From: Candidatus Melainabacteria bacterium
GTDB lineage: Bacteria; Cyanobacteriota; Vampirovibrionia; Obscuribacterales; Obscuribacteraceae
Length of the DNA: 64,000 nucleotides
Direction: 5' to 3'
Assembly (NCBI GenBank): GCA_003963305.1
Contig: RXJR01000028.1
Span: 248,001 to 312,000, forward strand
Shown here: piece after piece, positions 20,819-37,198 of the stretch
How the letters are laid out: each line of letters opens with the position of its first letter
Position numbering within the stretch: position 1 is the stretch's first letter
The notes under the pieces: model-generated
Told to the model about the DNA's origin: nothing
The model's input: the letters and a program-made list of their open reading frames with translations, nothing else
Database searches by the model: none
Program-made: the position numbers and the translations under genes

Positions 20819-20832
20819 ACAAATAAACCACC

Positions 20833-20887
20833 ATGGAGCGCACGCGTCCCGCGTGCATCAACATGGAGCGCACGCGTCTCGCGTGCA
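20833..20887 (-). repeat. Two copies of the GCGCTCCAT dispersed repeat
   Basis: Copies lie at 20833-20857 and 20863-20887 with a 30-bp period. On the minus strand each reads TGCACGCGGGACGCGTGC or TGCACGCGAGACGCGTGC followed by GCTCCAT. The stem GCACGCG/CGCGTGC surrounds a GGA or AGA loop. They lie in the spacer between the S41 protease and the HExxH gene. Confidence 0.85.
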
Positions 20888-20915
20888 CCTCTTCTTAGAG
20901 CAGCAAGCTATGATG

Positions 20916-20941
20916 CCGGGCGATTCTTACGAATCGTCCGG
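20916..20941. other. 11-bp hairpin after the S41 gene
   Basis: CCGGGCGATTC and GAATCGTCCGG pair over 11 positions with one G-T pair and a four-base loop, 45 bases after the S41 stop. No T-run follows. A 3'-end structure of the S41 transcript is likely. Confidence 0.5.
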
Positions 20942-20985
20942 TACCTTCTGTCAATCGGATAACAAGCCGCTAAGCCACGACTGTC

Positions 20986-23178
20986 TCACTGGAGATATAC
21001 GGGATCCTGCTGTTCAAGCGGCATACCGTCGACCGCCGCACGCTCCCGAACCTTTCTCTCGAACCCCTCTATGCGAGCGCGACTCTGCTTTTGAGTGGCG
21101 TCAAACCGCAGCAGCTGCTGCTTATTGAGCGCATAAATTTCTTCCCGAGCCGAATTCACCATGGCGGTGAGATCGCCGAGAACTTCTTTGTCGACAACAA
21201 GTCCTGTCACATTCGACTTCTGCCCACCAGGAAAGAACTCGAAGTTGGTGACGTGCAGGCTGAAGCCGTATGGAATGTCCACACCAGACTGACCTTCACT
21301 TTTGCCGCGACTGCCGAGTCCATGCAAGCGAGCACGGTGATTGCTCTGCATGACACCGGCAAGCCATTCGCTACCGCTTGCACTGGAGCCGTTGATGATA
21401 ATAACGAACGGCAGGTTCGAGGGAAGCAGAAGCGGCACTCGTGGCTTGGGCATGGCACTCGTTTTGCCGCCATGATGGACAGTGACAAATTCGAGATCAG
21501 GAGTGAGAAAACTCTCCGTCACCTCGATTTCATCGGTGCCAGGAAGACGCCGCACCACCTCACTTGTCTCGCCAAACGGCAACATCAGACCAATGGCTTG
21601 CTTGACCTGTTCAACATCGCCGCCCGGATTATCGGCCAGGTTGAGAATGAAACCGCCGCCGGTGCCTCCTTTCTCATAGACCTCACGCGCCTCGACAGCG
21701 ATGCTCACCATGTCGTCCTCGAGAATCTGACCTTTATCGAGGTTCGCTTTCAGCTCGTCAAAGCGGGCTGCTTTCTTGAGAGAATCGGCGTCTCCAGCCG
21801 TCCTCAAAGTCTTACTGGCAAGAGGTAAGACGGTCTTGGCGATAGCGGTGGCCAGATCCGCTCCAAGATTCTGCGCATAGAAAGAACGAATATGCAGCAG
21901 ATTAATGCCATCTCCGAGCGATTCGAGCAACACCGAATGCTCCTGAATGACAGCCCGTTTTAACGTGAACTCCTTCCGCTGACCGTTGCGTTCGACAGTC
22001 AAAGTCACCGGCGAATCGGCGGCTCCCCGAAGCAATTCAACTGCCTGATTGACAGTCTTGCCAGCCAGCGTCTGGTTGTCGACAGAAACGATGAGATCGC
22101 CCGGCTCAACTATCCCGTCAGCCGGAGTGCCTTTTTCAGCTCCGTTAGCAACCAGCTCGAACCCAGGACCAAGAGCAAGTCCGTCCTCGCCGACGAACTC
22201 AATTGGCACACCCGCGTCGGTGATTCCGGTCTTTATGATGTTGCCCGAAGGGTCCGGAGTGTAAGCGCGTTCGAGCGAGACTGTCATCATGCGCGCATCC
22301 GCAGATTGCCCACCGCGACGAATCGTCAGAGAGATCTTCGAACCCGGCTCACCGAACAGGGCTTTCTCGACCTCACCAATGGTCATTTCAGCGACCGCCC
22401 GATCTCCTATCTTGAGCACCACGTCACCATAATGCACGAGCCCGTACGAAGGACTACTCGACGGCGGTTCATGCACCAGCACGGTGAGACGACTACCGAG
22501 AGCAACATTGTCACGATTGTTCATACCGACATGGATACCCAATCCACCAAAGTTAGCCTTCCTCGTCTTGGTCTCTGTGACAGTGCGTTCCCGGCTCTGA
22601 ACATAGTCGAAACGAAGATGCAGAGAGTCGCGCATCAGCCTTATCGCATTCAGTGTCGCCGCGTCCGATTTGAAAACGGCAGGCTCACTATCGAACTTGT
22701 GCTCCCACTCAGCGACCCACCGAGCTCGCTGAATCGGATCAGCCATATTGACCGGACTGTCAGGGCTGTAGTGAAACTGCATGTAGGCGCGCAAGGCACG
22801 CATATACATGCATTTGTAGTCAGGCTGTTCGGGGCAGCCCAGACGCGTTCCAACTTTCACAAGCTGTTCGATGGCGCGATTGGTGCCTTCTTCGGTCATC
22901 AAATCGCTGTTGTGGTCGAACTTGTGCTCCCACTCCGCTTTGAATGGCGCGACCTGGTTGTTATCGGCGAGCAACTCGAATATCTCCAGAATAGTCTGGA
23001 ACTGATCGCGATAAAGCGGCAATCCGAGCGGCTCCTGCTGTGACTCTGCCTGTGCAGCGGGTGACACAGGCTGAGCCCGAGAAGCTGTGGGCGCTTGCTG
23101 GGCAAACGCCGCAGTTTCGAGCGATAGCATCGACAGCGCCACTGCGGCGACGCTTGCGAGCAAGAAGGACTTTTTCAT
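20986..23178 (-). CDS. S41 C-terminal processing protease with two PDZ domains
   Basis: A periplasmic serine protease of the Prc/CtpA family that trims C-termini of envelope proteins. The ATG at 23178 gives a clean signal peptide (MKKSFLLASVAAVALSMLSL, cleaved near AFAQQA), with GGAG 9 bases upstream. A helical region (about 40-220) precedes PDZ 1 (IHVGMNNRD to IRRGGQ) and PDZ 2 (ADGIVEPGDLIVSVDNQTL). The S41 core has GFILNLADNPGG, the serine motif INGSSASGSEWLAGVMQ and the lysine in GSRGKSEGQ, so it should be active. At 730 residues it resembles long Prc rather than short CtpA. Confidence 0.92.
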   Translation of the reverse strand: MKKSFLLASVAAVALSMLSLETAAFAQQAPTASRAQPVSPAAQAESQQEPLGLPLYRDQFQTILEIFELLADNNQVAPFKAEWEHKFDHNSDLMTEEGTNRAIEQLVKVGTRLGCPEQPDYKCMYMRALRAYMQFHYSPDSPVNMADPIQRARWVAEWEHKFDSEPAVFKSDAATLNAIRLMRDSLHLRFDYVQSRERTVTETKTRKANFGGLGIHVGMNNRDNVALGSRLTVLVHEPPSSSPSYGLVHYGDVVLKIGDRAVAEMTIGEVEKALFGEPGSKISLTIRRGGQSADARMMTVSLERAYTPDPSGNIIKTGITDAGVPIEFVGEDGLALGPGFELVANGAEKGTPADGIVEPGDLIVSVDNQTLAGKTVNQAVELLRGAADSPVTLTVERNGQRKEFTLKRAVIQEHSVLLESLGDGINLLHIRSFYAQNLGADLATAIAKTVLPLASKTLRTAGDADSLKKAARFDELKANLDKGQILEDDMVSIAVEAREVYEKGGTGGGFILNLADNPGGDVEQVKQAIGLMLPFGETSEVVRRLPGTDEIEVTESFLTPDLEFVTVHHGGKTSAMPKPRVPLLLPSNLPFVIIINGSSASGSEWLAGVMQSNHRARLHGLGSRGKSEGQSGVDIPYGFSLHVTNFEFFPGGQKSNVTGLVVDKEVLGDLTAMVNSAREEIYALNKQQLLRFDATQKQSRARIEGFERKVRERAAVDGMPLEQQDPVYLQ

Positions 23179-23325
23179 TTCGAATGTCTCCATTTTGTCG
23201 CTACGCGACGATTCGAAGATTCGCGCCCTTGTTCAATGGCGCAAACCGATACAGGTTTCTAGATTTTGTGTCGATCCACCCTTCTTTGATGCCTGGTGGC
23301 GATCAAGCCAAACAACCACAAAACA

Positions 23326-23347
23326 ACGCCAACCCATAGATCGGCGT
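23326..23347 (-). terminator. Probable terminator of the GH35 gene
   Basis: A 5-bp stem ACGCC/GGCGT with a 12-base loop, followed on the minus strand by TGTTTTG, 27 bases after the GH35 stop. The stem is short, so confidence is modest. Confidence 0.4.
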
Positions 23348-23373
23348 CGTTTATTAGCGTTGAGGAGCAACGC

Positions 23374-25815
23374 TCAGTCGAAGTCAATAACCACCGGACG
23401 ATCTCTGTGCTCGTGCCTGCTGATCAAGACTTCAACCGTTCGCCCCCTGCGTGTCACGACACCTATGTCACAGCGCACATTTGCGTTAGTAACCAGGACA
23501 ATCAAATCGTTGGCTTGAGTAGGGCTGACGATCAACTTGTTCTCGTCCATGCCCAGGATTTCAGCCGTCGATTGCTTGATGGTCACTCTTTTCCGCCGCA
23601 CACCATACGGAAGAAGCAGCGTGCCCCTGGCCGGTATGGTAATGCGATGCCCGCCGAACAGAGTCTTTCCATTGCGCTGCAGCTGGAACGACAACGCTTG
23701 CGGTGCAACATTGATCATGTGCACCAGGCGATCGCCTTCTTCCGACAGAGTGGAAGTGACCACAACTCCCGGACCATCCGCACCGACCAGTCTCCAGCGA
23801 GGCTCGACGCCCAGCGCACTCATGAGAGCGCGATAGAAATCGAGATCAGCCGGATAGTCGCAACCGAGCACAATCGCTTTGCCCTGACCGGCGTCTACTT
23901 CAACAGCGCACGGAAGCTGACTGGCTATTTCCGTGAGCAGAACATTGCACCGGCGACCATCCGAGCACGAAAGCAACTGCGCTTCCGTAACACGCTGATC
24001 GGGTCGCGGAGACACCCAGGAATGAGCCTTGACAGTCGGCCAATACGGACCGCTCTCTCGAACGGCGTCGACGACACGACCGGCACTTGTCAGACCCAGG
24101 GCGTCACCAAGTATGGTGCAAGCTTCACCATCGTGATCGCACTCAGGCAACAGACCGACAAGCAAAAGCTTGCCGCCCTTGAGCACATAATCAGCCAGAT
24201 TCTGCTGCACCTGGCGCCCCAGAGTGCGTCCGGTCGCCAGAACAACAACAGGATACTGCGGCACCTCAGACTGCAGATTCACACAAGGGAATGAAAAGCC
24301 ACCGAGCAGGAGAGCGCGAGTGAGAATGTCACGCGGGCCCATGCCACGATAGCGCTCCAGGTCTGCAACCTGCTCTGACCGCAGACGCGAAGCCGGATGA
24401 TGATACTCGCTCAGGTAATGGTCCAGGACCAGCCCGAGAGCAAAACCATCATTCTCTTCTGCACTTGTGCTGAGGATATCACGCACGCCATTCACAGACG
24501 CCATCGCCTGAGCTATGGCGTGATAAGTGGCGTTCACCTGACCATCAGGAGCAATCGGCGCGGCATAGCCATGCAACTGCCCGGTCGAAGCCAGCCTATC
24601 GATGCCATCGTCAGCGGTGCCGAAAGAAGGGTTCTCGCCGCCGGCCAACATGTAGAAGTTGAGCAAACGGAAACCCTGGGCAGTGCTCAAGATAGTTTTG
24701 AGCTTGACCGCCTCGGGTGCATACAGTTCGCCCATATCGAAACCGTAATTTCCTGTGCCGGCTTCGAACTCCATCGCTGTGGCTGGACGTTCTCCAAGAG
24801 TCGCCTTCAACATAGCATTGACGACATAGAGGTCAGCGACGTTGGCCACGGTCAGGTCGCCCAGATAGAGATCAGAACCAGCAGTGATCTGATCTGCCGT
24901 CGCCCAGGTTTCATGCAACTGGCTGATGCCAATCGGGAAATTTCGCGCCCGACCACCACCTGTGCCATGTACATTGATGATGAAGGGACCAGTGACGCCG
25001 TTCTGACGAGCATACTGGCTGAGCGTCGAGACGTAACGGGCGAAACGGTCACGCATGAACAGACCGAGATCATGGTGCAGCGCCAGCGATTTCTCACCCG
25101 GGCTGCGAAGCGCAGCGGCCCAGGCAATGTGATCGGAAGACCGAGCGCCGATGCGAGCACCGGCGAGGCTCCCGCCATAACGATTGATCGCCCAGTTGCG
25201 AAATTCCTCGCACATGCAGTCAGTCAGGTCCGGGCTGTTCGAAACCCAGCTGAGCATGCCGATCTCATTATCCAGCTGCACCGCGATGATCGGACCACCG
25301 TTGGATGCGGTGTATCTCGAGAGCACCGGCATGACATTGTCATACCAGACCTTCACCTCGGCAAGGAAAGCCGGAGCCAGATAGTCGACGGTCATTGTCG
25401 AAATCGGCTTGCCGTCCCATGTGACTGGACGAACTTCCGGATGTTCCTTTTTGATGCGCGAAGGAATGCCCTCGTTCTTCAGCTCGGCCATGCAGAACGG
25501 CCCGGGTTTGACAATGCACTGCAAACCCATCTCGTGACAGAGCCTGATGAAGCAGATCAGATCACGCTTCGGGTCCGAAACGCCCTCGAAGTCGAACTCT
25601 CCCTTTCCCAGCTCGTGCCAAACCCACGGCACATATGTCGCGACAGTATTGAGTCCAGCGTCACGCAACTTGGTGAGCCGATCTTTCCAATCCCGCGGCG
25701 CCACACGAAAGTAGTGAACTTCGCCCGCGCTAACAAGTTGCGCGCGACCATTGATGAGGATGCGGTCACGGCTGAGAGTGACCTCGCCGCCGCCATTTGT
25801 CTTTCGAGTGCCCAT
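23374..25815 (-). CDS. Beta-galactosidase-like glycoside hydrolase (GH35)
   Basis: A retaining exo-glycosidase expected to remove beta-linked galactose. The N-terminal (beta/alpha)8 barrel starts with SAGEVHYFRVAPRDWKDRL and DAGLNTVATYVPWVWHE, typical of GH35. The acid/base Glu is in AVQLDNEIGMLSW near residue 175. The likely nucleophile Glu is in ATAMEFEAGTGNYG near residue 345. The C-terminal half is beta-rich with a glutamine-amidotransferase-like fold (LLVGLLPECDHDGEACT). The ATG at 25815 has GGGAG 8 bases upstream. The open frame extends to 25857, but that part reads through a dispersed repeat. There is no signal peptide. Confidence 0.88.
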   Translation of the reverse strand: MGTRKTNGGGEVTLSRDRILINGRAQLVSAGEVHYFRVAPRDWKDRLTKLRDAGLNTVATYVPWVWHELGKGEFDFEGVSDPKRDLICFIRLCHEMGLQCIVKPGPFCMAELKNEGIPSRIKKEHPEVRPVTWDGKPISTMTVDYLAPAFLAEVKVWYDNVMPVLSRYTASNGGPIIAVQLDNEIGMLSWVSNSPDLTDCMCEEFRNWAINRYGGSLAGARIGARSSDHIAWAAALRSPGEKSLALHHDLGLFMRDRFARYVSTLSQYARQNGVTGPFIINVHGTGGGRARNFPIGISQLHETWATADQITAGSDLYLGDLTVANVADLYVVNAMLKATLGERPATAMEFEAGTGNYGFDMGELYAPEAVKLKTILSTAQGFRLLNFYMLAGGENPSFGTADDGIDRLASTGQLHGYAAPIAPDGQVNATYHAIAQAMASVNGVRDILSTSAEENDGFALGLVLDHYLSEYHHPASRLRSEQVADLERYRGMGPRDILTRALLLGGFSFPCVNLQSEVPQYPVVVLATGRTLGRQVQQNLADYVLKGGKLLLVGLLPECDHDGEACTILGDALGLTSAGRVVDAVRESGPYWPTVKAHSWVSPRPDQRVTEAQLLSCSDGRRCNVLLTEIASQLPCAVEVDAGQGKAIVLGCDYPADLDFYRALMSALGVEPRWRLVGADGPGVVVTSTLSEEGDRLVHMINVAPQALSFQLQRNGKTLFGGHRITIPARGTLLLPYGVRRKRVTIKQSTAEILGMDENKLIVSPTQANDLIVLVTNANVRCDIGVVTRRGRTVEVLISRHEHRDRPVVIDFD

Positions 25816-25831
25816 CGGCTTATCTCCCAGC

Positions 25832-25945
25832 ATGGAGCGCACGCGTCTCGCGTGCAACTAATTTCTCTTCGCATGGAGCGCACGCGTCCCGCGTGCACCT
25901 CATTTTTCTCGCATGCATACCATGGAAATACACGTGTAGCGTGCA
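25832..25945 (-). repeat. Three copies of the GCGCTCCAT dispersed repeat
   Basis: Two intact copies at 25832-25856 and 25873-25897 match those at 20833-20887, including the AGA and GGA loop variants. A decayed copy lies at 25922-25945. They fill the spacer between the GH3 and GH35 genes, 16 bases upstream of the GH35 start. The rest of the spacer (25946-26079) has short TCAGGA direct repeats and TTCCTGTCAGGAA, a small palindrome after the GH3 stop. Confidence 0.85.
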
Positions 25946-26079
25946 TTCCCATGACATGCACGACCAGACACAAATCGTGCACCATCTGCGCCATCAAACA
26001 TATTTGCGTGCGCATCGAAACCGACGCGCACGCATTTCTTGTCAGGACTTATAATTCCTGTCAGGAACGAATATTCCCA

Positions 26080-28296
26080 TCAGGACCGAAGTTCGAACTG
26101 CACCGCCTGCACGTCTCGGCAGTTGGCGCCGATGAAGAGCTGGAAGGTGCCAGGTTCAGCAACGAACTCGAGATCCTGGTTATGGAACCTGAGGTCATCG
26201 GACGTCAATTCGAATTGAACTAACGCCGACTCACCAGGTTCGAGGAAGATGCGACGGAAACCCTTCAGTTCTTGAACGGGTCGCGTCACAGTTCCGACAA
26301 GGTCACGGATATAGAGCTGCACCACTTCAGCACCGGCACGTTCACCAACATTGGTAAGCGTCACCGTCGCAGTCAGTGTTTCGCCCTCGTATATGTTGTC
26401 GGTGTTGAGTTTGACAGGTCCGATCTCGAAGTTGGTGTAGCTCAATCCGAAGCCAAACGGATAGAGCGGCGAGTTCGCCACATCCAGATAGCGACTGCGA
26501 TATTCAAGATCAGGCTGCGTCGGGTCGAAAGGTCGCCCCGTATTTTTGTGGTTGTAAAAGATCGGCACCTGCCCGAGCGTACGAGGGAAGCTCATAGTCA
26601 GCTTTCCGCTCGGGTTGACATCGCCAAATAGGACGTCGACGATAGCCGCACCAGCCATAGTGCCGCCGAACCATGTCTCGACAATTGCGTCGAGATTCTC
26701 GTCTTCCCAACTGAGCGTGAGGGGGCGACCATTCATGAGAACAAGAACGATGGGTTTCCCCGTCGCCTTGAGCGCCTTCAACAGGGCGACCTGGTTCTCA
26801 AACAAGCCGATCGTGCTGCGGCAAGAAGCTTCGCCCGTCAGGCCGAGGCACTCGCCGAGCGCAACCACGACAACGTCAGATTGAGAAGCGACCTCCACGG
26901 CTTCGTCAATCAGCTGAGCCGGCGACTTCTCGTCGATGGTGATCTGACCATCTCCCAGCTTCTTAATAAGGTCGGGCTCATCGATAAGATTGCAGCCCTT
27001 TCGATGTATGAAGGATGCCGAACCGAACTTCTGCCTGATGGCCTGCCACATACTAGTGGTTCTCTTCCAGTCGCCGGCAGCGCTCCAGCAGCCAATCAAG
27101 TTGCGATTGTCTGTCACCAGAGGCCCGACGAAGGCAATCTTCTGCTCCGGCCGCAGTGGCAGAACATTGTTCGCGTTTTTCAAGAGCACAATGCTCTCCG
27201 CGGCAGCCTGTTGCGCCAGTGCGAGCTTATCGGGGCTCATGATCTCGTTCTTGACGCGTTCTTCGCTGAGCCCTCGGAACGGATCTTCGAACAATCCAAG
27301 TTCCCACTTAGCTTCGAGAATGACGCGGCAGGCAGCATCGATCTGCTCAACCTTGATGCGCCCTTCCTCAACCGAGTCGGCAAGGTGTTTGAGAAACACT
27401 TCGCCGACCATGTCCATGTCGGTGCCGGCGCTCAGAGCCAACTCACCGACAGTAGCCTCATCGCCGACGCCATGCTCGATCATCTCGTTGATGGCCGTGT
27501 AGTCAGTGACGACAAAGCCCTGGAATCCCCACATCTTGCGCAACAGCGTCGTCAACAACCATTTGTTGCCGGTAGCGGGAAGTCCGTCGACCTCATTGAA
27601 TGAGGTCATCACGCTCAGCGCGCCCGCCTCAACACCAGCACGGTAGGGCGGCAGGAAGTAATCGAACATGCGCCAGCGGCTCATGTCGACCGTATTGTAG
27701 TCGCGACCTGCTTCCGCGGCTCCGTAGAGCGCGAAGTGCTTAATGCACGCCGCCACAGCACGGGGATCGCGAAGGTCAGCACCCTGGTAACCGCACACCA
27801 TAGCCTGAGCGATTCTCGAACCGAGGAAGGGGTCTTCACCGGCGCCTTCCGCAACCCGACCCCAACGGGGATCTCGGCAGACATCGAGCATCGGCGAGAA
27901 AACCCAGTTGACGCCATCCGCGGAGGCTTCGCCGGCCGCGGCGCGAGCAGTGCGCTCGATCAGATCCATATCCCACGTAGCCGCCAGTCCGAGCGGCAGA
28001 GGGAAGATTGTGCGGTGTCCATGAATGACGTCATAGCCGAACAAAAGCGGAATGCCAAGACGCGACTGAGTGACCGCCATCGTCTGCAACGGACCCACCA
28101 CTTGCGGACCGATCGAATTGAAGACGCCTCCAGCAAGGCCACCTTTGATTTTATCCTCTGCCCCAACACTCATAATCGGGCCGGTGACAGCGGAACCGAC
28201 AGACAGCAAATTGAGCTGTCCGATCTTCTCTTGCAGAGTCATCCTGGCCATCAAGCCGGCGATGAACTTGTCTCGACTGCGTTTATCAAGCAGCAT
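26080..28296 (-). CDS. bglX: Beta-glucosidase, GH3 (BglX-like)
   Basis: Hydrolyses terminal beta-linked glucose from oligosaccharides. The 738 residues have the usual GH3 order: N-terminal barrel with DPRWGRVAEGAGEDPFL, KHFALYGAAEAGRDYN and the nucleophile Asp in GFVVTDYTAINEM near residue 260. Next is the alpha/beta sandwich (VVALGECLGLTGEASCRS) and a C-terminal fibronectin III-like domain (LTATVTLTNVGERAGAEVVQ). GGAG precedes the ATG by 6 bases. No signal peptide is seen, whereas E. coli BglX is periplasmic. It precedes the GH35 gene, suggesting joint use of plant or microbial glycans. Confidence 0.93.
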   Translation of the reverse strand: MLLDKRSRDKFIAGLMARMTLQEKIGQLNLLSVGSAVTGPIMSVGAEDKIKGGLAGGVFNSIGPQVVGPLQTMAVTQSRLGIPLLFGYDVIHGHRTIFPLPLGLAATWDMDLIERTARAAAGEASADGVNWVFSPMLDVCRDPRWGRVAEGAGEDPFLGSRIAQAMVCGYQGADLRDPRAVAACIKHFALYGAAEAGRDYNTVDMSRWRMFDYFLPPYRAGVEAGALSVMTSFNEVDGLPATGNKWLLTTLLRKMWGFQGFVVTDYTAINEMIEHGVGDEATVGELALSAGTDMDMVGEVFLKHLADSVEEGRIKVEQIDAACRVILEAKWELGLFEDPFRGLSEERVKNEIMSPDKLALAQQAAAESIVLLKNANNVLPLRPEQKIAFVGPLVTDNRNLIGCWSAAGDWKRTTSMWQAIRQKFGSASFIHRKGCNLIDEPDLIKKLGDGQITIDEKSPAQLIDEAVEVASQSDVVVVALGECLGLTGEASCRSTIGLFENQVALLKALKATGKPIVLVLMNGRPLTLSWEDENLDAIVETWFGGTMAGAAIVDVLFGDVNPSGKLTMSFPRTLGQVPIFYNHKNTGRPFDPTQPDLEYRSRYLDVANSPLYPFGFGLSYTNFEIGPVKLNTDNIYEGETLTATVTLTNVGERAGAEVVQLYIRDLVGTVTRPVQELKGFRRIFLEPGESALVQFELTSDDLRFHNQDLEFVAEPGTFQLFIGANCRDVQAVQFELRS

Positions 28297-28425
28297 GTCT
28301 TACTCCTTCATGTTTGATCTGTTGTCACTTAATGGCATCGGCAGCCCTTCCAGCCGCCGATTGCCAATGTCAATAAACAAGCGCGAACTAAATCGCGCTC
28401 GTCCAGACCACCATACGGCGGTGCA

Positions 28426-28566
28426 TCACTCCGGCAACTGCAACGAACCCAAACCTTGCAGGCTGGAATAAAGCGCACCATAATAAGCTGCGAGTACCGC
28501 AACCACACCCAGAAAGATAAGCACCGGTATCGCGAACGATACCAGTGCTTCCAGACCCCTCTTCAT
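28426..28566 (-). CDS. Small single-span membrane protein (46 aa)
   Basis: An AGGTGA ribosome site lies 3 bases before the ATG at 28566. The protein starts MKRGLEALVSFAIP and continues with a transmembrane helix (VLIFLGVVAVLAAYYGAL), ending in a short polar tail. The gene starts 33 bases after the stop of the S1 protease on the same strand, so the two are probably co-transcribed and the peptide may partner the protease or sit in the same membrane. I do not recognise it. The opposite-strand frames over this stretch have no ribosome site. Confidence 0.6.
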   Translation of the reverse strand: MKRGLEALVSFAIPVLIFLGVVAVLAAYYGALYSSLQGLGSLQLPE

Positions 28567-28599
28567 AGATCACCTTTTCGTCAGGTAGAACAGCTGATA

Positions 28600-29937
28600 T
28601 CACTGGCGGTGCAGATCGTCAAGCGCCTCCTTCATGAAACGAGCCGGCAAAGCAAGGGTAACGCCGCCACCTTGCTGGGTGACGAACGACATGCTGACCA
28701 CCTCGCCGTTGAGATTAACGACAGGGTTCCCAGAATCGCCTCTGTAGCCCTGGATGTTCTCGACCACGACTTCTTGACCCAGCGCATAACGCGAGTCGAG
28801 ACCGGGCAAAGCGGCGAACGGCTTGACCTCGCTGACCTGACCGATGCTGTCGGAGGGACCACGGGTCCAACGAGCGCTGCTCGGATTGAAATGCTCAGGC
28901 AAAGGCAGCGTTCCCATGAAGACCTGACTGCCCGCCTTCGCTGGCTCGTCGGCGATCTTCAAGGGTTTGCATGCTTCAGCCGGAACTGCCGCCGTGAGAA
29001 TGGAAATCTCACGTTCGCGCTTTTCCAGAACCTTTTTAGCCGGATAGCTCTGACCGTTGGACAGCGTCACTTCGAACCCGGCGAATTCCTCGTCGGTGAC
29101 GTGACTGACAGTCGAGATCTCGCAGTTCCCCGCCTTGTCGATGCCTACGGCGAAGCCTGGTCCAACTCCGCCGGAGCGCTTGCCAGCCTGTGTCGTCCAG
29201 ACGAAGACCATGCTCGGCTTCGTCAGGGCGTCCAGACGATCGGCCAATTTGGCACGTTCGTATGCTTCCGGAGTCGCATAGCTGACCGCACCCGAGGCCG
29301 AGACGTTGGCGTTCTGCTGAATGAAGCCTTCCAACTCCTGCGGACTGCAGATCACGCCCTCGGAGAGATCGGGAGAATCGCTCCTCTTCATTACGAATAT
29401 GACGGCAGTCGGGCCGGTTGCCGGGCATGTATCAAAGTAGCCCCTCTGTTCGAATGTGGGCGCTATCGGCGTAACGGTCGTATCGCCGTCTACATGCGAC
29501 TTCCCGAGGTTGTTTTGAAGTCCCGCTTTCGCCCTAGCTTCGAATTCAGCCTTAGCCGCAGCAAAATCGGACTTGCGCTTCGCATCATATTCGGTGTGCA
29601 AATCGAGGTCGATTTGTCCAAACTGAATTCGCTGCCCGGGATAGGCGCGAGCGAAAGCTTTCAGATCTTCGCGCAGACGGGAGCACTGTTCCGTGCCCCG
29701 GCAAAGCTGGATCAAATAACGATCGGCTGCGTCGACCTGCTCGTAACGCCCGGGCGGAATGACAGCAACATGCGTGCTGCCATTCTCGATCACGCCGCCG
29801 GACGTGGCGGGCGCATTCCCGATGCCACCTTCAGCGATGCCCAAGTCATCAGCACCCAATGCGGCACCGATCATTCCGAACGTGGCGCACATCAAAGCGG
29901 CGCCGAGCCAGAGAACCTTGCGGTTGGCATTTCTCAT
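28600..29937 (-). CDS. Secreted trypsin-like (S1) serine protease
   Basis: The ATG at 29937, with GAGG 8 bases upstream, gives a signal peptide (MRNANRKVLWLGAALMCATF, then GMIGAALGADD). A 220-residue N-terminal region of unknown type with KAEFEARAKAGLQ-like helices precedes the protease domain. The domain shows the His in STVSHVTDEEF and the Ser in YRGDSGNPVVNLNGEVVSM. Where HtrA-type enzymes have the catalytic Asp in DLAxL, this protein reads EREISIL, an apparent Glu. It has no PDZ domain. The role is likely envelope protein degradation or processing. A 46-residue membrane peptide follows at once. Confidence 0.82.
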   Translation of the reverse strand: MRNANRKVLWLGAALMCATFGMIGAALGADDLGIAEGGIGNAPATSGGVIENGSTHVAVIPPGRYEQVDAADRYLIQLCRGTEQCSRLREDLKAFARAYPGQRIQFGQIDLDLHTEYDAKRKSDFAAAKAEFEARAKAGLQNNLGKSHVDGDTTVTPIAPTFEQRGYFDTCPATGPTAVIFVMKRSDSPDLSEGVICSPQELEGFIQQNANVSASGAVSYATPEAYERAKLADRLDALTKPSMVFVWTTQAGKRSGGVGPGFAVGIDKAGNCEISTVSHVTDEEFAGFEVTLSNGQSYPAKKVLEKREREISILTAAVPAEACKPLKIADEPAKAGSQVFMGTLPLPEHFNPSSARWTRGPSDSIGQVSEVKPFAALPGLDSRYALGQEVVVENIQGYRGDSGNPVVNLNGEVVSMSFVTQQGGGVTLALPARFMKEALDDLHRQ

Positions 29938-29990
29938 TGAGGTATCCTCACGATTTTTGTTGCACAAATTGGAAGCGATACTTGCGCCTT

Positions 29991-31025
29991 TCAGCGCAAG
30001 TTCGCCAGTTTTCCATCCTCACGAGCGCGATTCAACGCTTCTCGCGCCGTCAGTTGGGCATCAAGCCTCATCTTGAGGCAACGTTCGGCACTGAGCCCGA
30101 AGTTGAGACCAGCAACGTCGGGATCGCCTGTTTCGATAACCAGGTGCCTGGCCTGGTCAACATAGCGGTGATTACCCGCAAGCGGGCAGTGCACCTCGCA
30201 CTCGGTGAAGAACAGGTAGAGCCAGTTCTTCACCTCTGCCGGCACCTCGGTGGCAGGACGAAAGGTGCTGAAGATTGCCGAGTCACGACAAAATTCAGCC
30301 GGACTGTAGTGAATGGTGGCACCATCACCAAGCAGCCGCATACCACCCTCGAAGTGATCCCACTGAGGCACGAACACCCTCTGCAGCGAACACGCCGAAG
30401 CCAGAACATGAGCCAGATCATGATCCTTGCCTCGGAATGAGACCAGGGTCTGCCGAAACAAATCAGCAGCGATCGGGTTCAAGTTGTCCTGCGGACGCAG
30501 ATTGTAGCGCTCGACCATGCTGCGCATGGGTCGAGCCAGATCAACAAAACCGCCGATGCTGACCCTGAGCGGATCAGGCAGAGTGAGGCAGCTCAAGAAC
30601 GTCTGCAAACTGCTGCCATGATGCCAGAAGCGAGTCGCAGCCTCAGTCATACGGACGACAGCAGAGCCCCAGCCACTTTCCATGAAAGCACCCGGGTCAG
30701 GCTTGAGAGAGCCTTCCATAGCCAGCTTGAGAAGTTCGTCGGACATTTCCTTCCAACCAGCCAGCAAGACCGTGACCGGGTCCTTGCAATCCTCGAGAGC
30801 TTCAAGAAAGATCTCAGTGATCTGGTCGGGAGTATACCCGTTCGTGTAGAAGGCTGCGACAATGGCGCCGACCGACACACCATGGATGGTGCCGAGCGGA
30901 ATCCCTTGCGCCTCGAGTTCATCGAGCACGCCGATATGGCGAAAGCCGTTCACTCCACCGGCAGCCAACACCAGTTCGATGTCGGTGGCAGGCAGGCGAA
31001 ACGGCGGATTCTGGTGAGCAACCAT
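29991..31025 (-). CDS. Patatin-like phospholipase
   Basis: A lipid acyl hydrolase using a Ser-Asp dyad. The N-terminal oxyanion loop is LVLAAGGVNGFRHIGVL, where Ala-Ala-Gly-Gly replaces the usual GGGxxG. The nucleophile serine sits in HGVSVGAIVAAF (GxSxG) near residue 50. The Asp lies in LLGDGATIHYSP, the DG(A/G) motif. Length 344 fits bacterial patatins. GGAGGAG sits 3-6 bases before the ATG. There is no signal peptide, so it acts in the cell or is exported by another route. It could release fatty acids for the beta-oxidation genes nearby. A terminator lies 34 bases upstream. Confidence 0.9.
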   Translation of the reverse strand: MVAHQNPPFRLPATDIELVLAAGGVNGFRHIGVLDELEAQGIPLGTIHGVSVGAIVAAFYTNGYTPDQITEIFLEALEDCKDPVTVLLAGWKEMSDELLKLAMEGSLKPDPGAFMESGWGSAVVRMTEAATRFWHHGSSLQTFLSCLTLPDPLRVSIGGFVDLARPMRSMVERYNLRPQDNLNPIAADLFRQTLVSFRGKDHDLAHVLASACSLQRVFVPQWDHFEGGMRLLGDGATIHYSPAEFCRDSAIFSTFRPATEVPAEVKNWLYLFFTECEVHCPLAGNHRYVDQARHLVIETGDPDVAGLNFGLSAERCLKMRLDAQLTAREALNRAREDGKLANLR

Positions 31026-31059
31026 TTTCTCCTCCTGTTCGATGTTAGGGATAAAAACC

Positions 31060-31087
31060 AGCTCCGGTGTTTTCTTCGACCGGAGCT
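31060..31087 (-). terminator. Rho-independent terminator after the M16 pair
   Basis: A perfect 9-bp stem (AGCTCCGGT / ACCGGAGCT) with a 10-base loop, followed on the minus strand by GGTTTTTATC. It closes the M16 pair 20 bases after the stop and lies only 34 bases before the patatin start. Confidence 0.85.
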
Positions 31088-31107
31088 GATTTGCGGTTGT
31101 GGAAAAG

Positions 31108-32397
31108 TCAGTTCACCTTTCCGGCGACGACAGTGACAGCGTTTTCGAGACCGAAGTGAACGCGTATGGCGTCGTTCACCTGCTCGCGAGTGACCGCCTT
31201 GAGGCGCTGCGGATAGAGATCGATCTCCTCGACCCCGAGACCCGCAAACTCGAGATCGGCGATTGTGGTAGCCACTTTCATATCGGTGCGCAGCCCGAGT
31301 AGGAAAGCTTCGACAGCGCGACTGGCCTGGCTGCTGACTTCGAGTTCAGTGACTCCCTCATTGACGAACTCCGAGGTCACTTTGTCGACCAGCTCAAGCG
31401 CGCTCTCAACCTTCTGAGCATCGGTCGAGAGTGATATCGTCCACGGTGCGCCGCCGACATACAACTCCTGGAACCCGCTGTTGATGCCATACGTAAGCGA
31501 GTGCTTGACGCGCACAATCTTGCCCAGGCGCGATCCAATCGTATCGCCGCCCAGAATCAAGTTGCCGATGCGCGCGGCGCAGAAATCAGGATTCGACCAC
31601 TTCACCGAGCTGGATCGGCCGATCACGACATCGAGATTGGCTTCGTCTCCAACCGGCACATCGAAGCGACTTTTCTGCGGCAGGGGCGCAGCGACAACAG
31701 CGATAGGCCGTGCCGTCGGCCCACGCCAATCACCCAGATACCGATCGATCAGAGCGAAAGCAACTTCGCTGTCAACGTCGCCGACGATCGAGATAACGCC
31801 ACCGTGCGGTGCCACGTGCGCATCGTAGAAGCGGCGCAGCATTGAGCAATCGATGTCGTTCAGCTCAGCCTGGGCTTCGGCGAAGCTTCTTTCTGCGTAA
31901 GGTCCGCTCTCGTATAGCTTGCCAGCGAGAACGTTGCTCGCCATTTCGGCAGGCTCGTTGATGCGGCGCGTCAGATCTGAAGCCCACTGCTTCTTCGCGA
32001 GAGCAAGCTCCCCGCCATCGAAACGAGGGTTGCGCAGCAGTTCGGACATCAGTTGCATGGCGTCAGAAAAACTCGAAGCCGTGACAAACGCGCTCAAGCC
32101 GAAGCTGAACGTATCAGTCCCGAAACCGAGGCGACCCATGCCTTGAAGCATTCTGGCGATTTCTCGCTTGGAGTATTTGCGGGAACCCATCTTCAACTGG
32201 TGGGCAACCAGAGTCGGCACGAGCGAATAGCCGCCGGCTAAGGCATCGCCAGCGTGCAACTTGCCGACAATCGAGACCGCACCCGAGTTAGGAACAGACT
32301 TGACGAGCACCTTCAGACCATTGTGCAGAAGACGCTGCGCGACTGTATTGGCGATGCCCATCGGAATTCCCGCCGATGCACCCTGAGATTCTTTCAT
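31108..32397 (-). CDS. M16-family peptidase subunit, probably non-catalytic
   Basis: A 429-residue pitrilysin-fold protein: LLHNGLKVLVKSVPNSGAVS opens the domain, and the C-terminal half contains GGVISIVGDVD and NLILGGDTIGSRLGKIVR. At the zinc site, where active members have HxxEH, it reads LVPTLVAHQLKMGS, so the motif is lost. Such subunits pair with a catalytic partner to form the cleft. The partner is the gene upstream at 32474-33883. GGAG lies 6 bases before the ATG. The pair resembles the bacterial PqqF/YmxG type and mitochondrial processing peptidase alpha/beta arrangement. Confidence 0.9.
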   Translation of the reverse strand: MKESQGASAGIPMGIANTVAQRLLHNGLKVLVKSVPNSGAVSIVGKLHAGDALAGGYSLVPTLVAHQLKMGSRKYSKREIARMLQGMGRLGFGTDTFSFGLSAFVTASSFSDAMQLMSELLRNPRFDGGELALAKKQWASDLTRRINEPAEMASNVLAGKLYESGPYAERSFAEAQAELNDIDCSMLRRFYDAHVAPHGGVISIVGDVDSEVAFALIDRYLGDWRGPTARPIAVVAAPLPQKSRFDVPVGDEANLDVVIGRSSSVKWSNPDFCAARIGNLILGGDTIGSRLGKIVRVKHSLTYGINSGFQELYVGGAPWTISLSTDAQKVESALELVDKVTSEFVNEGVTELEVSSQASRAVEAFLLGLRTDMKVATTIADLEFAGLGVEEIDLYPQRLKAVTREQVNDAIRVHFGLENAVTVVAGKVN

Positions 32398-32473
32398 TGA
32401 TTACTCCTGATGTTCCATACCAAAGACACCACTAGTAGTGCATGATTGAATGCACAACTCGGTTCTGTTCTGT

Positions 32474-33883
32474 TCAGGATTCTTCAGAATCCGAGTTCGT
32501 CGGAATAAACACGCCGACGGTGCGATTCGTTTCGGTGAAATACTTGCCAGCCACGCGCATGACGTCTTCGGATGTCACCTCGTCGAATAAGTCGTCGAAT
32601 TCCACCTGCCAGCGCCAGTCACCGACGGCCGATTCACCTTCGCAAATCCACTTCACCCATTGCATAGGATCCTGAAGGCCAAGCACCGTGCTGACACGAT
32701 TTGCTGCCCGCGCAAAAGCAAGCTCTTCCTCCGAAACTGGCTCCTGAGATAGTCTTGCCAGTTCAGAAAGAAGCACGGACTCAACTTTCTCGACCGACGT
32801 CTTGGGTGTGAGCGTCGTTTCGATAGTGAAAAGTCCAGGATCGCGAAACTCAAGCTGCGAGCAACCAGCGTCTGCGACCAACCCATTTTCAACCAGGGCT
32901 GAGTAGAGACGGCTGTCTGGATTGCTGCTGCCGCCCAGAATACGCGCAATCACTGCAAGCGCATAAGTGTCGTCCTGACTCGACTCCGGCACATGAAAAC
33001 CCAGCCAGACCCGAGGCAAGTCGCCACTCTTGCGCACCTCGAAACGCCGCTCAGCTTCCTGGGGTGGCTCAACGTCGAATACGAGCGGTATCGGCTGAGG
33101 CGACCGCGGAATGTTTGCATAGTGCCGGGCGATCGCTGCCAGGACGACGATGTTCTCGACGGCGCCTCGACAGACGATGACGCAATTGTTCGGCCAGAGG
33201 TAGGTGTCGTAACACGCCCGAATTTGCGGCAGCGTCACGTTCTCGACATCCGGTCTCAGCCCGATCGCAGTCCAGCGATAAGGATGCTCCTGGAAAGCAG
33301 TTTCGAACATTTTGCCGAACATGATCCTGTCGGGATCTTTGCCACGCATGCTCATTTCTTCGAGAACAACACCACGCTCACTCTCCACCGGACCGGAATG
33401 AAGAAGCAAGTTGCGCATACGGTCAGCCTCGACCTCGATGGGGGTCTCGAAGTGTTGAGCCGAGACGCACTCGAAATAAGAAGTGCGGTCGAAGAAAGTG
33501 GTGGCGTTGAGCAACATGCCCAGCGGTCCGAATGTCTCAAAAACACCGGTGCCATTTTCCGGATTGTGCTTTTCGGTGCCCTTGAACATCAAGTGTTCCA
33601 GGAAGTGAAAGACGCCGGTCGTGCCTGAGAGATTGACGCGAGCCTGGCGAGAAAGGGCGCTGAAAAGACCTGCGGGCTTCTCGTTGCGGCTGCCGACGCG
33701 GAACATCTGCAAGTAAGTGAAGACTGGTTTGGAGTGGTCTTCCATGAGCACGACCTTGAGCCCATTGGCGTTCAAGACATACTCCGAGATGCCATGTGCG
33801 CTCTGCACATGCGTGAAGCCGAGTTCCTCTTCAGGAGTCGGCTTCCTTTCCTGGTCGCCGTGGCGCCCACTTGTTCTGGTCAT
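32474..33883 (-). CDS. M16-family zinc peptidase, catalytic subunit
   Basis: A 469-residue M16 peptidase with the inverted zinc motif HFLEHLMFKGTEKHNP near residue 95 and the distal Glu ligand in EVEADRMRNL about 75 residues later. GGAGAGA precedes the ATG by 7 bases. The C-terminal R/Y-type region (ALAVIARILGGSSNPDSRLY) is present. It degrades or processes peptides in partnership with the following subunit, 76 bases downstream. There is no signal peptide in this start. The pair is closed by the terminator at 31060. Confidence 0.93.
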   Translation of the reverse strand: MTRTSGRHGDQERKPTPEEELGFTHVQSAHGISEYVLNANGLKVVLMEDHSKPVFTYLQMFRVGSRNEKPAGLFSALSRQARVNLSGTTGVFHFLEHLMFKGTEKHNPENGTGVFETFGPLGMLLNATTFFDRTSYFECVSAQHFETPIEVEADRMRNLLLHSGPVESERGVVLEEMSMRGKDPDRIMFGKMFETAFQEHPYRWTAIGLRPDVENVTLPQIRACYDTYLWPNNCVIVCRGAVENIVVLAAIARHYANIPRSPQPIPLVFDVEPPQEAERRFEVRKSGDLPRVWLGFHVPESSQDDTYALAVIARILGGSSNPDSRLYSALVENGLVADAGCSQLEFRDPGLFTIETTLTPKTSVEKVESVLLSELARLSQEPVSEEELAFARAANRVSTVLGLQDPMQWVKWICEGESAVGDWRWQVEFDDLFDEVTSEDVMRVAGKYFTETNRTVGVFIPTNSDSEES

Positions 33884-33924
33884 GAGGATCTCTCCTTCTG
33901 AGTTTGACCTGAGAATACGAACAT

Positions 33925-33951
33925 CCTGGTGACACCGAATGTGCCACCAGG
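33925..33951. other. Hairpin before the M16 gene
   Basis: CCTGGTG pairs with CACCAGG around a loop that holds a further CAC/GTG. It lies 42 bases upstream of the start at 33883. There is no T-run. Confidence 0.5.
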
Positions 33952-33987
33952 TGATTGGTGTGATTGCGCCCTAGCCCGTGTCGCCGA

Positions 33988-34581
33988 TCAAACTTTCGAT
34001 TTCTCGGTGATCGGGCTGACGTGCCATTCCGCGATGAATGTGGCGACGAGCACGCCAGTCTCGTTCCCCTCGGGAGCGTGCGGCGCGCATGGTATAACAA
34101 CAGCCCCTTCGGTGTCGGCCGAGCAAAGCTGGTATATATAGGCCCTCACTTCAAAGGTTCGCTTTTCCAGCGAAAATTCAACGGACGGCGCATAGCTGAT
34201 GGCGACAAGCGTGCCGTGGGCGACTTTGTGATATTCCGTGCTCAGCTTGGCGACGATTCCGCGCAGTCCAGGCGGAAGACTGTGCAGGAAAGCAATTCCG
34301 GACGTCATTTCGCCCAGATTCGTCATCGCCACGGCGTGGATGGAAGGGACGAAGTTTCGCACGAACCAACGGTCTTTCATCGACACTTTGGCGTACCCCG
34401 GTGCCAGCTCCAGAACTTTGGCGCCGATCGTGCCCGTATAGGGGGCTTTGAGGTTAATGCGGGTGCTGAACAGCAAATTGCCGAAAGGCAGCTTGCTGCA
34501 CATTTCCCACCCGTCGCGCAATACCGCACCGATGCCGCCCCGAGCCTTCTTCGGCGCCGCAGTTGAAATAGTCTTTGTCAT
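33988..34581 (-). CDS. DUF4442-type hotdog thioesterase
   Basis: The ATG at 34581 has GGAG 7 bases upstream and gives a 197-residue protein. Segments LAPGYAKVSMKDRWFVRNFV and SIHAVAMTNLGEMTSGIAFL are typical of DUF4442/PaaI hotdog proteins, which hydrolyse acyl-CoA thioesters. TNLGE would carry the helix with the catalytic acidic residue. Its position next to a FadE-like gene supports a role in acyl-CoA turnover. The substrate is not known. Confidence 0.82.
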   Translation of the reverse strand: MTKTISTAAPKKARGGIGAVLRDGWEMCSKLPFGNLLFSTRINLKAPYTGTIGAKVLELAPGYAKVSMKDRWFVRNFVPSIHAVAMTNLGEMTSGIAFLHSLPPGLRGIVAKLSTEYHKVAHGTLVAISYAPSVEFSLEKRTFEVRAYIYQLCSADTEGAVVIPCAPHAPEGNETGVLVATFIAEWHVSPITEKSKV

Positions 34582-34717
34582 GATGTTCTCCAGCGATGAT
34601 GGCACCATTCTCGGTGCATTTTTCCAACTCTACTTACAGAACGCGCTCTCTCCAGTTCCCGAAATTGATCGATCACTGAGAGGCGCGTTCTTCCTTTAGT
34701 TATGTGGTATCAGAAGC

Positions 34718-34776
34718 GGTGCAGCCGAGATGGCTGCGCTCCATGTTTAGGTGCAGCCGGGACGGCTGCGCTCCAT
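34718..34776 (+). repeat. Two copies of the GCGCTCCAT repeat with a different stem
   Basis: Copies at 34718-34744 and 34750-34776 read GGTGCAGCCGAGATGGCTGC and GGTGCAGCCGGGACGGCTGC, each followed by GCTCCAT. The stem is GCAGCC/GGCTGC instead of GCACGCG/CGCGTGC, but the loop (GGGAC, GAGAT) and the 3' tail are the same as in the copies at 20833 and 25832. They are oriented against the flanking genes. The spacer 34582-34793 also holds GCACC-ATTCTC-GGTGC at 34602-34617. Confidence 0.85.
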
Positions 34777-34793
34777 TACTTCGGCACCACTGC

Positions 34794-37136
34794 TCAGACT
34801 CGGAAGGCCTGAGCCGACGTTTCATCGCCCACGAAATACTCCGAGGCTTCGAACTCGTCAACCTGGATGGCCGTCTCCATCCAGTCGTAAGCGGCATTCA
34901 GCTGGGACGCTTCCAAAACATTGATCACGCCCAGTTTGGCAGCCCGCTCGATCAAAGCCGGACGGATATCGCCTTTCGGCAAGACCCCCTTCTTCTGAGC
35001 CTTGCTCAGTTTGGCAGCGGCGCCCCGAGCTTCCGTTTCGACTTCGAAAGCTCTGAGCAAAACGCCAAGACCAAGCGCGCTTCCCGGCGGCTGGTAGACA
35101 TATTCGCTCAGTCGCAGGAACTGATCGTTGTATGTCTGCATGGTCGCCGCCGCCGCCTTCTTCTGACGGTCAGTCGGACCGACCGACAGAGTATTGAGGC
35201 GCAGCATCGGCAAGCCGACCTTGCGCATCAACCAGCCGACCACGGGCACTTCGAAGTTGGCGTAGATGCCCTCGAAAGCCCGCTGCACCTGCTGCAAAGC
35301 GTATTCGACCGCGTATTCGACGAGCGGAAGATCTTCTTCACGACGCCCTTCGCGTTCGAAACGCAGCAAGGCAAACTTCGCCCAGAGAATCCAACCGAAC
35401 GCGTCGGTGAATCGCCCGGAGAGCATGCCCTTGACCTTGAGCTTGGGACCCATGGTCAGCAGCGTGCGGTCGATGAGCATGCCGAAGCGCGTCGTAGCCC
35501 AGTCCAGTCGACGATAGAAATCGACAGTCTCGGGTGCGACGTTCTCAGGCTTCGCGCTCGCCAGACCGACAGTCAAGTCGCGGGCCAGGCAGCGTCCTGC
35601 GCCCACCGCAGCATGGCCTAGCCAGGCGGCGAACTCGGTGCAGAACTGATTGGGAAGGTCCTGTTCCAGAGCCGTCAGCACATCGAGCGCGTACGGATGG
35701 CAGCGGGTCGCTCCCTGACCGGTAGTGAGCATGGTGCGCGTCATGATGCTGGCGCCTTCGACCGTCTTGCCGACCGGCAAAGATCCATACATGCGTCCGA
35801 GGATGTTCCGCGGTCCCTGCATCACTGCAGCACCCGCGAAGATGTCCATGCCTGCGATGACCACTTCGGCGCCGAGCTCGGTCGAAAACAGCTTGAGCGC
35901 GCCTGATATCACAGGCGGTGCAATGCCGGAATCGATGAGCGAGCAGACGCCAATGCGAGCCGCTTCCATCATGTAAGTAATGCCGTTGATGTGGGCGAGC
36001 TTCTCGATAATGCCCTCCATCTTGCCGATCGGCATGGCGAACTGCCGCCGCACCATGGAATAGGCGTTGGCGGAAGCGGCCGTCAAGAGCATGCCGCCCA
36101 GAGCGCCCGCCGGCAGCGAGATAGCGCGACCGCCAGCCAGCTGCTGCATGAGCATCTGCCATCCCCGCCCGGCGCCATCGACACCGCCGATGATGTCATT
36201 GACGGGCATGATCACGTTCGTGCCGGTGAGAGGCCCATTGAAGAAGCCGTCACCGATCGGAATGTGATGCTTGCCCTGCGTGAACCCGGGCGTTCCCCTC
36301 CACAAAAGTCCGCAAGTGACGCCGATGTCTGTGACCGGTTCACCATCTGCGTCTTTCCGACCGAGCAAGTGCTCGGGGTCGAAGAGCTGGAAGGAGAGCG
36401 TTGTGATGTCGGCGACCGGGCCCAGCGTCATGTAGCGCTTTCTGAAGTTGAGCCGCACTGCCAGCGTCTCGTCAGCCTGGCGAAACACCACACCCGAAGC
36501 CTCGATGTTGGCCGCATCGGAGCCATTCTTCGGTTCGGTCAGACCGAAACATGGGACAAGCTCTCCGGTGGCGAGCTTCCGAAGCAGCTTCTTCTGTTCG
36601 GACGTGCCGTAGTGCTTGATCAACTCCGCCGCCGACAGCGAGTTGGCGATCGTGATGTAGGTGCTGACTGCGGCTGAAACCTGACCGACCATGGTCAGAA
36701 CAGTCGAGATAGCGAGCCAGGAGAAGCCCAGACCACCATCAGCTTGGGGAATCAAGAGACCCATGAAGCCCTGCTGGTGAATGAAGTCGATGACCTTCTT
36801 CGGCACTCGCCGCGTCTGATGAATTTTCCAGGCGTCGACCATGCGACACAGATCCTTGCAGGGTCCGTTGATGAACGCCGCCTCACGATCGGTGAGACCA
36901 TTGAAAGGCAACGCCGAGTAAGCCCTCCAGTCAATCTTGCTGCCGAAGAGACCGCCGTCGATCGAAACATCGCCTGCCTGCAGCGCCAATCGTTCGCTGT
37001 CCGAGATGCTCGGCATGGGGAAAAACTTGAGCGCAAGCTGCATGACAGCCCCGCTCGGTCGTCCACGCAGAAGCTCGCTCAGAACCGTCTTCTTCACCTT
37101 CCTGGAGCCGCGACCGGCTTTCGTTTCTACACTCAT
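34794..37136 (-). CDS. fadE: Acyl-CoA dehydrogenase, long FadE type
   Basis: An FAD enzyme for the first step of beta-oxidation. The 780 residues are about twice a normal acyl-CoA dehydrogenase and match E. coli FadE (814). The core has GFMGLLIPQADGGLGFSWLA, the flavin-binding CFGLTEPKNGSDAANIEASG and a C-terminal helical half with GLMR-type and ALARDL-like segments (VGAGRCLARDLTVGLASAKP). GGGAG lies 6 bases before the ATG at 37136. The next genes upstream are FadB-like and thiolase, so the three core steps of fatty-acid degradation lie in a row. Confidence 0.92.
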   Translation of the reverse strand: MSVETKAGRGSRKVKKTVLSELLRGRPSGAVMQLALKFFPMPSISDSERLALQAGDVSIDGGLFGSKIDWRAYSALPFNGLTDREAAFINGPCKDLCRMVDAWKIHQTRRVPKKVIDFIHQQGFMGLLIPQADGGLGFSWLAISTVLTMVGQVSAAVSTYITIANSLSAAELIKHYGTSEQKKLLRKLATGELVPCFGLTEPKNGSDAANIEASGVVFRQADETLAVRLNFRKRYMTLGPVADITTLSFQLFDPEHLLGRKDADGEPVTDIGVTCGLLWRGTPGFTQGKHHIPIGDGFFNGPLTGTNVIMPVNDIIGGVDGAGRGWQMLMQQLAGGRAISLPAGALGGMLLTAASANAYSMVRRQFAMPIGKMEGIIEKLAHINGITYMMEAARIGVCSLIDSGIAPPVISGALKLFSTELGAEVVIAGMDIFAGAAVMQGPRNILGRMYGSLPVGKTVEGASIMTRTMLTTGQGATRCHPYALDVLTALEQDLPNQFCTEFAAWLGHAAVGAGRCLARDLTVGLASAKPENVAPETVDFYRRLDWATTRFGMLIDRTLLTMGPKLKVKGMLSGRFTDAFGWILWAKFALLRFEREGRREEDLPLVEYAVEYALQQVQRAFEGIYANFEVPVVGWLMRKVGLPMLRLNTLSVGPTDRQKKAAAATMQTYNDQFLRLSEYVYQPPGSALGLGVLLRAFEVETEARGAAAKLSKAQKKGVLPKGDIRPALIERAAKLGVINVLEASQLNAAYDWMETAIQVDEFEASEYFVGDETSAQAFRV

Positions 37137-37198
37137 TTCTGTCTCCCTTATCTGGAGGTGAGCAAGCAAGACCATCTCGCTGTGCTCAAAAATATTGC

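Follow-up and report, generated by a model that had tools for sequence, protein, structure and literature searches.

Group 3 repetitive extragenic palindromes (REPs), the elements associated with group 3 REP-associated tyrosine transposases (RAYTs, TnpA_REP), are already known to come in several stem classes per genome (PMC2817692, PMC3686654, PMC8266576), and switching of the stem class beside orthologous RAYTs has been described (PMC3686654). For the group 3 TnpA_REP, mutations of the loop or the tag abolish or strongly reduce cleavage; changes to stem blocks matter less, and stem mismatches are harmful (PMC8266576). Here we analysed a 64,000-nucleotide stretch of Candidatus Melainabacteria bacterium (Obscuribacteraceae; assembly GCA_003963305.1, contig RXJR01000028.1, positions 248,001 to 312,000), hereafter referred to as the window, in which tagged hairpin repeats lie between genes, and followed these repeats through the genome and its relatives. 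The repeats are very likely REP elements, the hairpin substrates of the genome's single RAYT, and it is most probably this RAYT that spreads them. With tag and loop constant and a dozen stems exchanged, the family is a natural experiment in substrate recognition by a RAYT, and its non-canonical, partly degenerate tag bears on the choice of the cleavage site.

A dispersed family of tagged hairpins

The element is a hairpin with a 7-bp stem and a TCC or TCT loop, preceded on its 5' side by the tag TGGAGC. A strict pattern (GGAGCGCN{2,6}GTCYC) occurred 5 times in the window (0.14 expected) and 108 times in the whole 7.48-Mb genome (3 for the reversed control), and allowing other bases at position four of the tag added 67 in the genome (1 in the control). 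A covariance model of 26 positions, comprising the foot, the 7-bp stem and the 3-nt loop, gave at least 136 matches genome-wide. We fetched and scanned 75 loci, and the copy statistics given below rest on at least 184 copies in 74 loci; this number of mainly intergenic copies agrees with the dispersal that characterizes REPs.

The tag, which the original prediction had taken as fixed, is largely conserved but variable at its fourth base, reading GGAG in about 111 copies, GGAA in 43, GGAC in 17 and GGAT in 3 of the 184. Instead of the two stem types first noted, the genome holds 12 perfectly paired classes, the largest being GCACGCG (39 copies in 22 loci, the most abundant), GCACCCG (28), GCAGCCG (24), GCCCGCG (20) and GCACTCG (10). 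Arrays were also found at contig ends (G000:C1:4-73 and the ends of C13 and C23), where they probably break the assembly, so that the true copy number is probably higher. Directly 3' of the hairpin, ACC or ATC stands in 22 of the 62 outermost copies; as a possible cleavage-site signal this is suggestive only. A literature search for the GGAN tag or its translated motifs returned no relevant paper.

Stem arms are exchanged together

Among the 88 distinct rows of aligned matches, 99.5% of stem cells were paired, and 85 cells had changed on both sides, compared with 25.5 in shuffles (0 of 500 shuffles as high). Covariation reached 0.415; shuffling lowered it to 0.107, and with the 3' arm slid it did not exceed 0.069. 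Since these copies came from a model that rewards pairing, a second sample was drawn by the tag, loop and constant bases only, with the 3' arm left free; its 620 variable cells comprised 581 Watson-Crick pairs, 19 G.T, 2 A.C and 18 others. The two arms thus change together, as had been proposed from the window, and the data argue strongly that pairing is under selection: rather than a few fixed stems altered without compensation, there are 12 classes, with compensatory change throughout the genome. Copies such as GCAGTCG/CGGCTGC look like intermediates.

On the tag strand, 12 loci contained G.T and 2 contained A.C (P = 0.006 by locus); counted by distinct event the numbers were 8 and 2 (P = 0.055). 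Because G.T outnumber A.C, the tag strand would be the one that folds. Where RNA or a DNA cruciform had been named, the evidence now leans towards the tag strand acting as single-stranded DNA.

A single RAYT stands between inverted copies

A search for a Y1/RAYT-like transposase, as suggested in the original prediction, revealed exactly one Y1 transposase gene in the genome, a single-copy RAYT of 206 aa at G000:C24:63217-63834. Its reading frame is intact and contains the motifs NHVH (HUH), WQ and YIENNP (single tyrosine); the protein scores 92 bits on NCBIfam NF047646 REP_Tyr_transpos (cut-off 80) and is similar to the solved TnpA_REP 4er8 (E = 1e-10). Four full tagged copies, together with a fifth that lacks the tag, flank it on the plus strand and an inverted run of three on the minus strand, all of them GCACGCG-class copies or decayed forms of these. 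A RAYT between inverted copies is the arrangement that defines a REPtron. The initial remark that no function is assigned to such repeats was too pessimistic, as the repeats are REP elements and have a cognate RAYT.

The protein belongs to the Y1/HUH superfamily, as would be expected if the hairpins were the ends of an IS200/IS605-type insertion sequence and not REPs. However, it reaches only 21 bits with the IS200 model, whose cut-off is 55, against the 92 bits on REP_Tyr_transpos, the gene is single copy compared with hundreds of hairpins, several full-length gene copies are absent, and the same hairpin stands inverted on both sides of the gene. An insertion sequence of this type is therefore extremely improbable.

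Direct tandem arrays close to gene 3' ends

Neighbouring copies in this genome run in the same direction in 99 cases and are inverted in 7, and the 5' stem arm is common to 82 of 106 neighbour pairs (13% by chance). The median spacer identity is 1.0 within an array and 0.35 between arrays. Since spacers are identical within and unrelated between arrays, the arrays grew by duplicating the repeat together with local DNA, and the period is therefore a local property, ranging from 24 to more than 70 bp; the 30-41 bp seen at first lie within this range. The two orientations reported earlier hold between loci, whereas within an array the copies point the same way. The supposed alternation of GGA and AGA loops within pairs proved to be chance, given that 81 of 93 direct-repeat TCC/TCT neighbour pairs have the same loop (TCC-TCC, 58; TCT-TCT, 23) and 12 are mixed.

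These arrays, which clearly arose by duplication of repeat and local flank, could also belong to an old, dead repeat family shaped only by local tandem duplication (replication slippage) and drift, with no transposase now at work. The stem class common to neighbours fits such a history, as does the fact that most stem classes differ from the one adjacent to the RAYT. Yet about 75 dispersed genomic sites are beyond the reach of slippage, the genome has an intact RAYT, the copies next to it belong to the commonest class, and pairing has been kept through change. We regard a dead family as unlikely.

Gene context was taken from a simple codon-usage gene predictor trained on the window and applied to loci chosen for holding repeats. 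The copies lie between genes, as first stated, with only 5 of 78 clusters inside predicted genes. Among the 69 placed clusters, 34 are in co-directional gaps, 30 in convergent gaps and 5 in divergent gaps; the last make up 27% of the intergenic length, so that clusters there are fewer than expected (P = 3.5e-5). The median distance from a cluster to a gene 3' end is 16 bp. Relative to co-directional genes, 22 clusters have the same and 12 the opposite orientation, a bias that is not significant (P = 0.12).

Both the position just downstream of genes and the avoidance of divergent gaps are compatible with hairpins acting as RNA, namely as mRNA 3'-end stabilisers or attenuators selected for pairing whose dispersal is incidental, and the tag-strand excess of G.T over A.C would fit RNA pairing as well. 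Set against this, orientation to transcription is not significantly biased, and an intrinsic terminator was rejected, a T-run following the hairpin in just 5 of 184 copies. Moreover, an RNA role predicts neither a conserved unpaired tag nor a RAYT flanked by copies, and it appears improbable to us.

REP copies in the window

A covariance search with filters off recovered six copies in the window with E-values of 4e-8 to 6e-7, which are flattering because the model was built partly from window copies (the pattern counts are independent of it); the next best match reached E = 0.62. Two plus-strand copies with the stem GCACGCG/CGCGTGC, at 20832-20857 (loop TCC, tag GGAG; E = 4.1e-8) and 20862-20887 (loop TCT; E = 7e-8), form a direct tandem with a 5-nt spacer, and the second lies about 98 bp downstream of the stop of a predicted gene at 20986-23193 on the minus strand. 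The same stem recurs on the plus strand in the direct tandem of 25831-25856 (loop TCT; E = 7e-8) and 25872-25897 (loop TCC; E = 4.1e-8). On the minus strand, the copy at 34720-34745 (E = 5.6e-7) has the stem GCAGCC/GGCTGC, an A.C apex (ATCTC) and the tag GGAG, and that at 34752-34777 (E = 1.8e-7) has the stem GCAGCCG/CGGCTGC and a TCC loop. The latter is 16 bp downstream of the stop of an acyl-CoA dehydrogenase gene (34794-37175, minus strand; Pfam).

Seven copies had originally been counted, of which these six were recovered. The seventh, at about 25917-25945 on the plus strand, follows the second REP pair directly and is an imperfect hairpin read by eye (CATGGAAATACACG..CGTGCATTCCCATG) whose loop is TGTAG. 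The covariance search without filters gives no match there up to E = 10, and the sequence is at best a decayed REP relic. A search of the window against Rfam gave no match over the gathering score.

Repeats and RAYTs among relatives and in other phyla

We compared repeat copy numbers across 60 relatives; they were high in the present genome (G000), in G028 (216 copies) and in G016 (144), and lower in G035, G002 and G034. RAYTs of the same type were present in G028, G022 and G024, and in degraded form in G002. The RAYT of G028 is flanked by GCGGACG, which accounts for most of that genome's listed copies, and the degraded RAYT of G002 by GCCGGCA, the commonest class among its listed copies. Copy number fits the presence of the RAYT in G000, G028 and G002; G022 and G024 have the RAYT and few copies. 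A dependence of the copies on the RAYT is suggestive, not proved. Inverted REP pairs also occur in G016 and G028.

Related RAYTs with 35-51% identity were found in Acidobacteriota, Omnitrophota, Desulfobacterales, Kiritimatiellota, Chloroflexota, Hydrogenedentes, Verrucomicrobiota and Gammaproteobacteria. Most of the 23 related loci have inverted flanking hairpins with the apex CG-TCY-CG and other stems, and the Chloroflexota hairpins have a GCT loop instead of TCY; the tags are GGAG, GTAG or GTGG. In a tree of 32 RAYTs, many of whose inner branches are weak, the GGAG-tagged rows cluster (6 changes compared with 11 in shuffles; 1 of 500 as low). This clustering, together with the common apex and the differing stems, indicates that tag and apex track the protein and that the stem moves freely. 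At the Kiritimatiellota locus L036 670 the stem is GCACGCG, identical to the commonest class of the present genome.

Proposed recognition of the hairpin by the RAYT

The RAYT would bind the single-stranded tag strand and recognize three features there: the GGAN tag immediately 5' of the hairpin, the GC pairs at the base of the stem, and the loop with its closing C-G pairs (CG-TCY-CG). The central part of the stem would be sensed mainly as helix, with any sequence accepted if the arms match. New stem classes may evolve step by step, by compensatory changes that pass through G.T intermediates, and could then be multiplied on the spot, giving direct tandem arrays, or be carried to intergenic sites elsewhere. 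We infer that this RAYT cleaves and mobilises the repeats, that it is the tag strand which it binds, and that the variable fourth tag base helps to choose the cleavage site.

Several observations weigh against the identification of the repeats as substrates of this RAYT. The tag differs from the canonical GTAG/GTGG, and neighbours form direct tandems, not inverted pairs. One RAYT stands beside 12 perfect stem classes, and only about one fifth of the copies are of the RAYT-adjacent class; most copies may thus have been left behind by earlier states or by other RAYTs. Among the relatives, G034 and G035 have 20-odd copies with no RAYT found, and in G016, with its 144 GGAGC repeats, the only RAYT found is of another type with GTAG hairpin flanks, although the cognate enzyme may have been lost or left unassembled. 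Furthermore, no insertion was observed directly and no orthologous empty site was alignable, as the genus mates have no close orthologue of either of the two flanking genes tried, one for an S41 peptidase and one for the acyl-CoA dehydrogenase.

RAYT cassettes in frame inside host enzymes

Several relatives have a RAYT whose reading frame meets no stop at either end and runs on into a host enzyme. Long host frames that hold a RAYT in frame, with host domains around it, were found at L033 (2477-6139), L035 (3416-6946), L037 (3254-7276), L038 (3362-7201), L041 (3398-5512), L043 (3074-5590), L049 (2369-6397), L050 (2120-5953) and L051 (1164-4757). The hosts include a DUF1156 methylase (in Omnitrophota, Desulfobacterales and two Chloroflexota strains), an isochorismate synthase, a DNA methylase, IspG/GcpE in two Verrucomicrobiota and LeuRS in a Verrucomicrobium. 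The split LeuRS scores 939 bits on leuS_bact across both halves, and its genome has no other match of full strength, two further hits being weak; the split IspG is the only IspG found in each of the two genomes, counts that come from metagenome-assembled genomes of unstated completeness. At L035, L037 and L038, which span two phyla, the RAYT sits at the same place of the DUF1156 methylase. Between L037 and L038 the RAYT is 74% alike and the host part 44%; because the RAYT is more alike than its host, insertions may have targeted this site repeatedly.

Short REPs that lie in frame within genes have been described before (PMC3733652, PMC6006769). For whole RAYT cassettes in frame in essential enzymes we found no report in the papers searched, which is not proof of absence. 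As 25-mers, 174 of the 184 repeat units are open in all six frames compared with 79 of 184 when shuffled, although the copies are not independent; open repeats of this kind would make in-frame insertions survivable. We tentatively propose, as a possibility short of probable, that a cross-phylum lineage of GGAN-tag RAYTs reads the hairpin by tag and apex only, so that one enzyme carries many stem classes, and that its whole REP-RAYT-REP cassettes, because stops are lacking from the REP ends in nearly every frame, settle in frame in conserved host enzymes, the sole LeuRS and IspG genes found in their genomes among them, as translated passengers, with the host enzyme still working. The in-frame cassettes of the relatives would illustrate how an essential gene can accommodate a mobile element.

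Comparison with known REP systems

The repeats resemble the group 3 TnpA_REP REPs of Stenotrophomonas, Pseudomonas and Marinomonas (PMC2817692, PMC3686654, PMC8266576) in their short perfect hairpin, small loop and 5' tag, in their intergenic placement and in the inverted copies around the RAYT. They differ from them in having a GGAN instead of a GTRG tag, direct tandem arrays instead of inverted dimers, and a dozen perfect stem classes for one RAYT. With the GTAG superfamily (PMC3733652) they have in common the position between convergent and co-directional genes, tandem clusters reiterated with flanking DNA, and elements that also stand in frame inside genes; in contrast to its GTAG/GTRG tag, the tag here has G in place of T at the second base and is degenerate at the fourth. 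The nuclease is homologous to E. coli TnpA_REP and 4er8 (E = 1e-10), whereas E. coli has long, imperfect REP palindromes in which a bulge is required (PMC8266576) and the stems here are perfect and 7 bp long. Unlike in BIMEs and REPINs, the inverted two-REP unit is not the rule in this genome (99 direct and 7 inverted neighbours). Overall, the family works like a REP-RAYT system and, by the flanking copies and the enzyme, is one.

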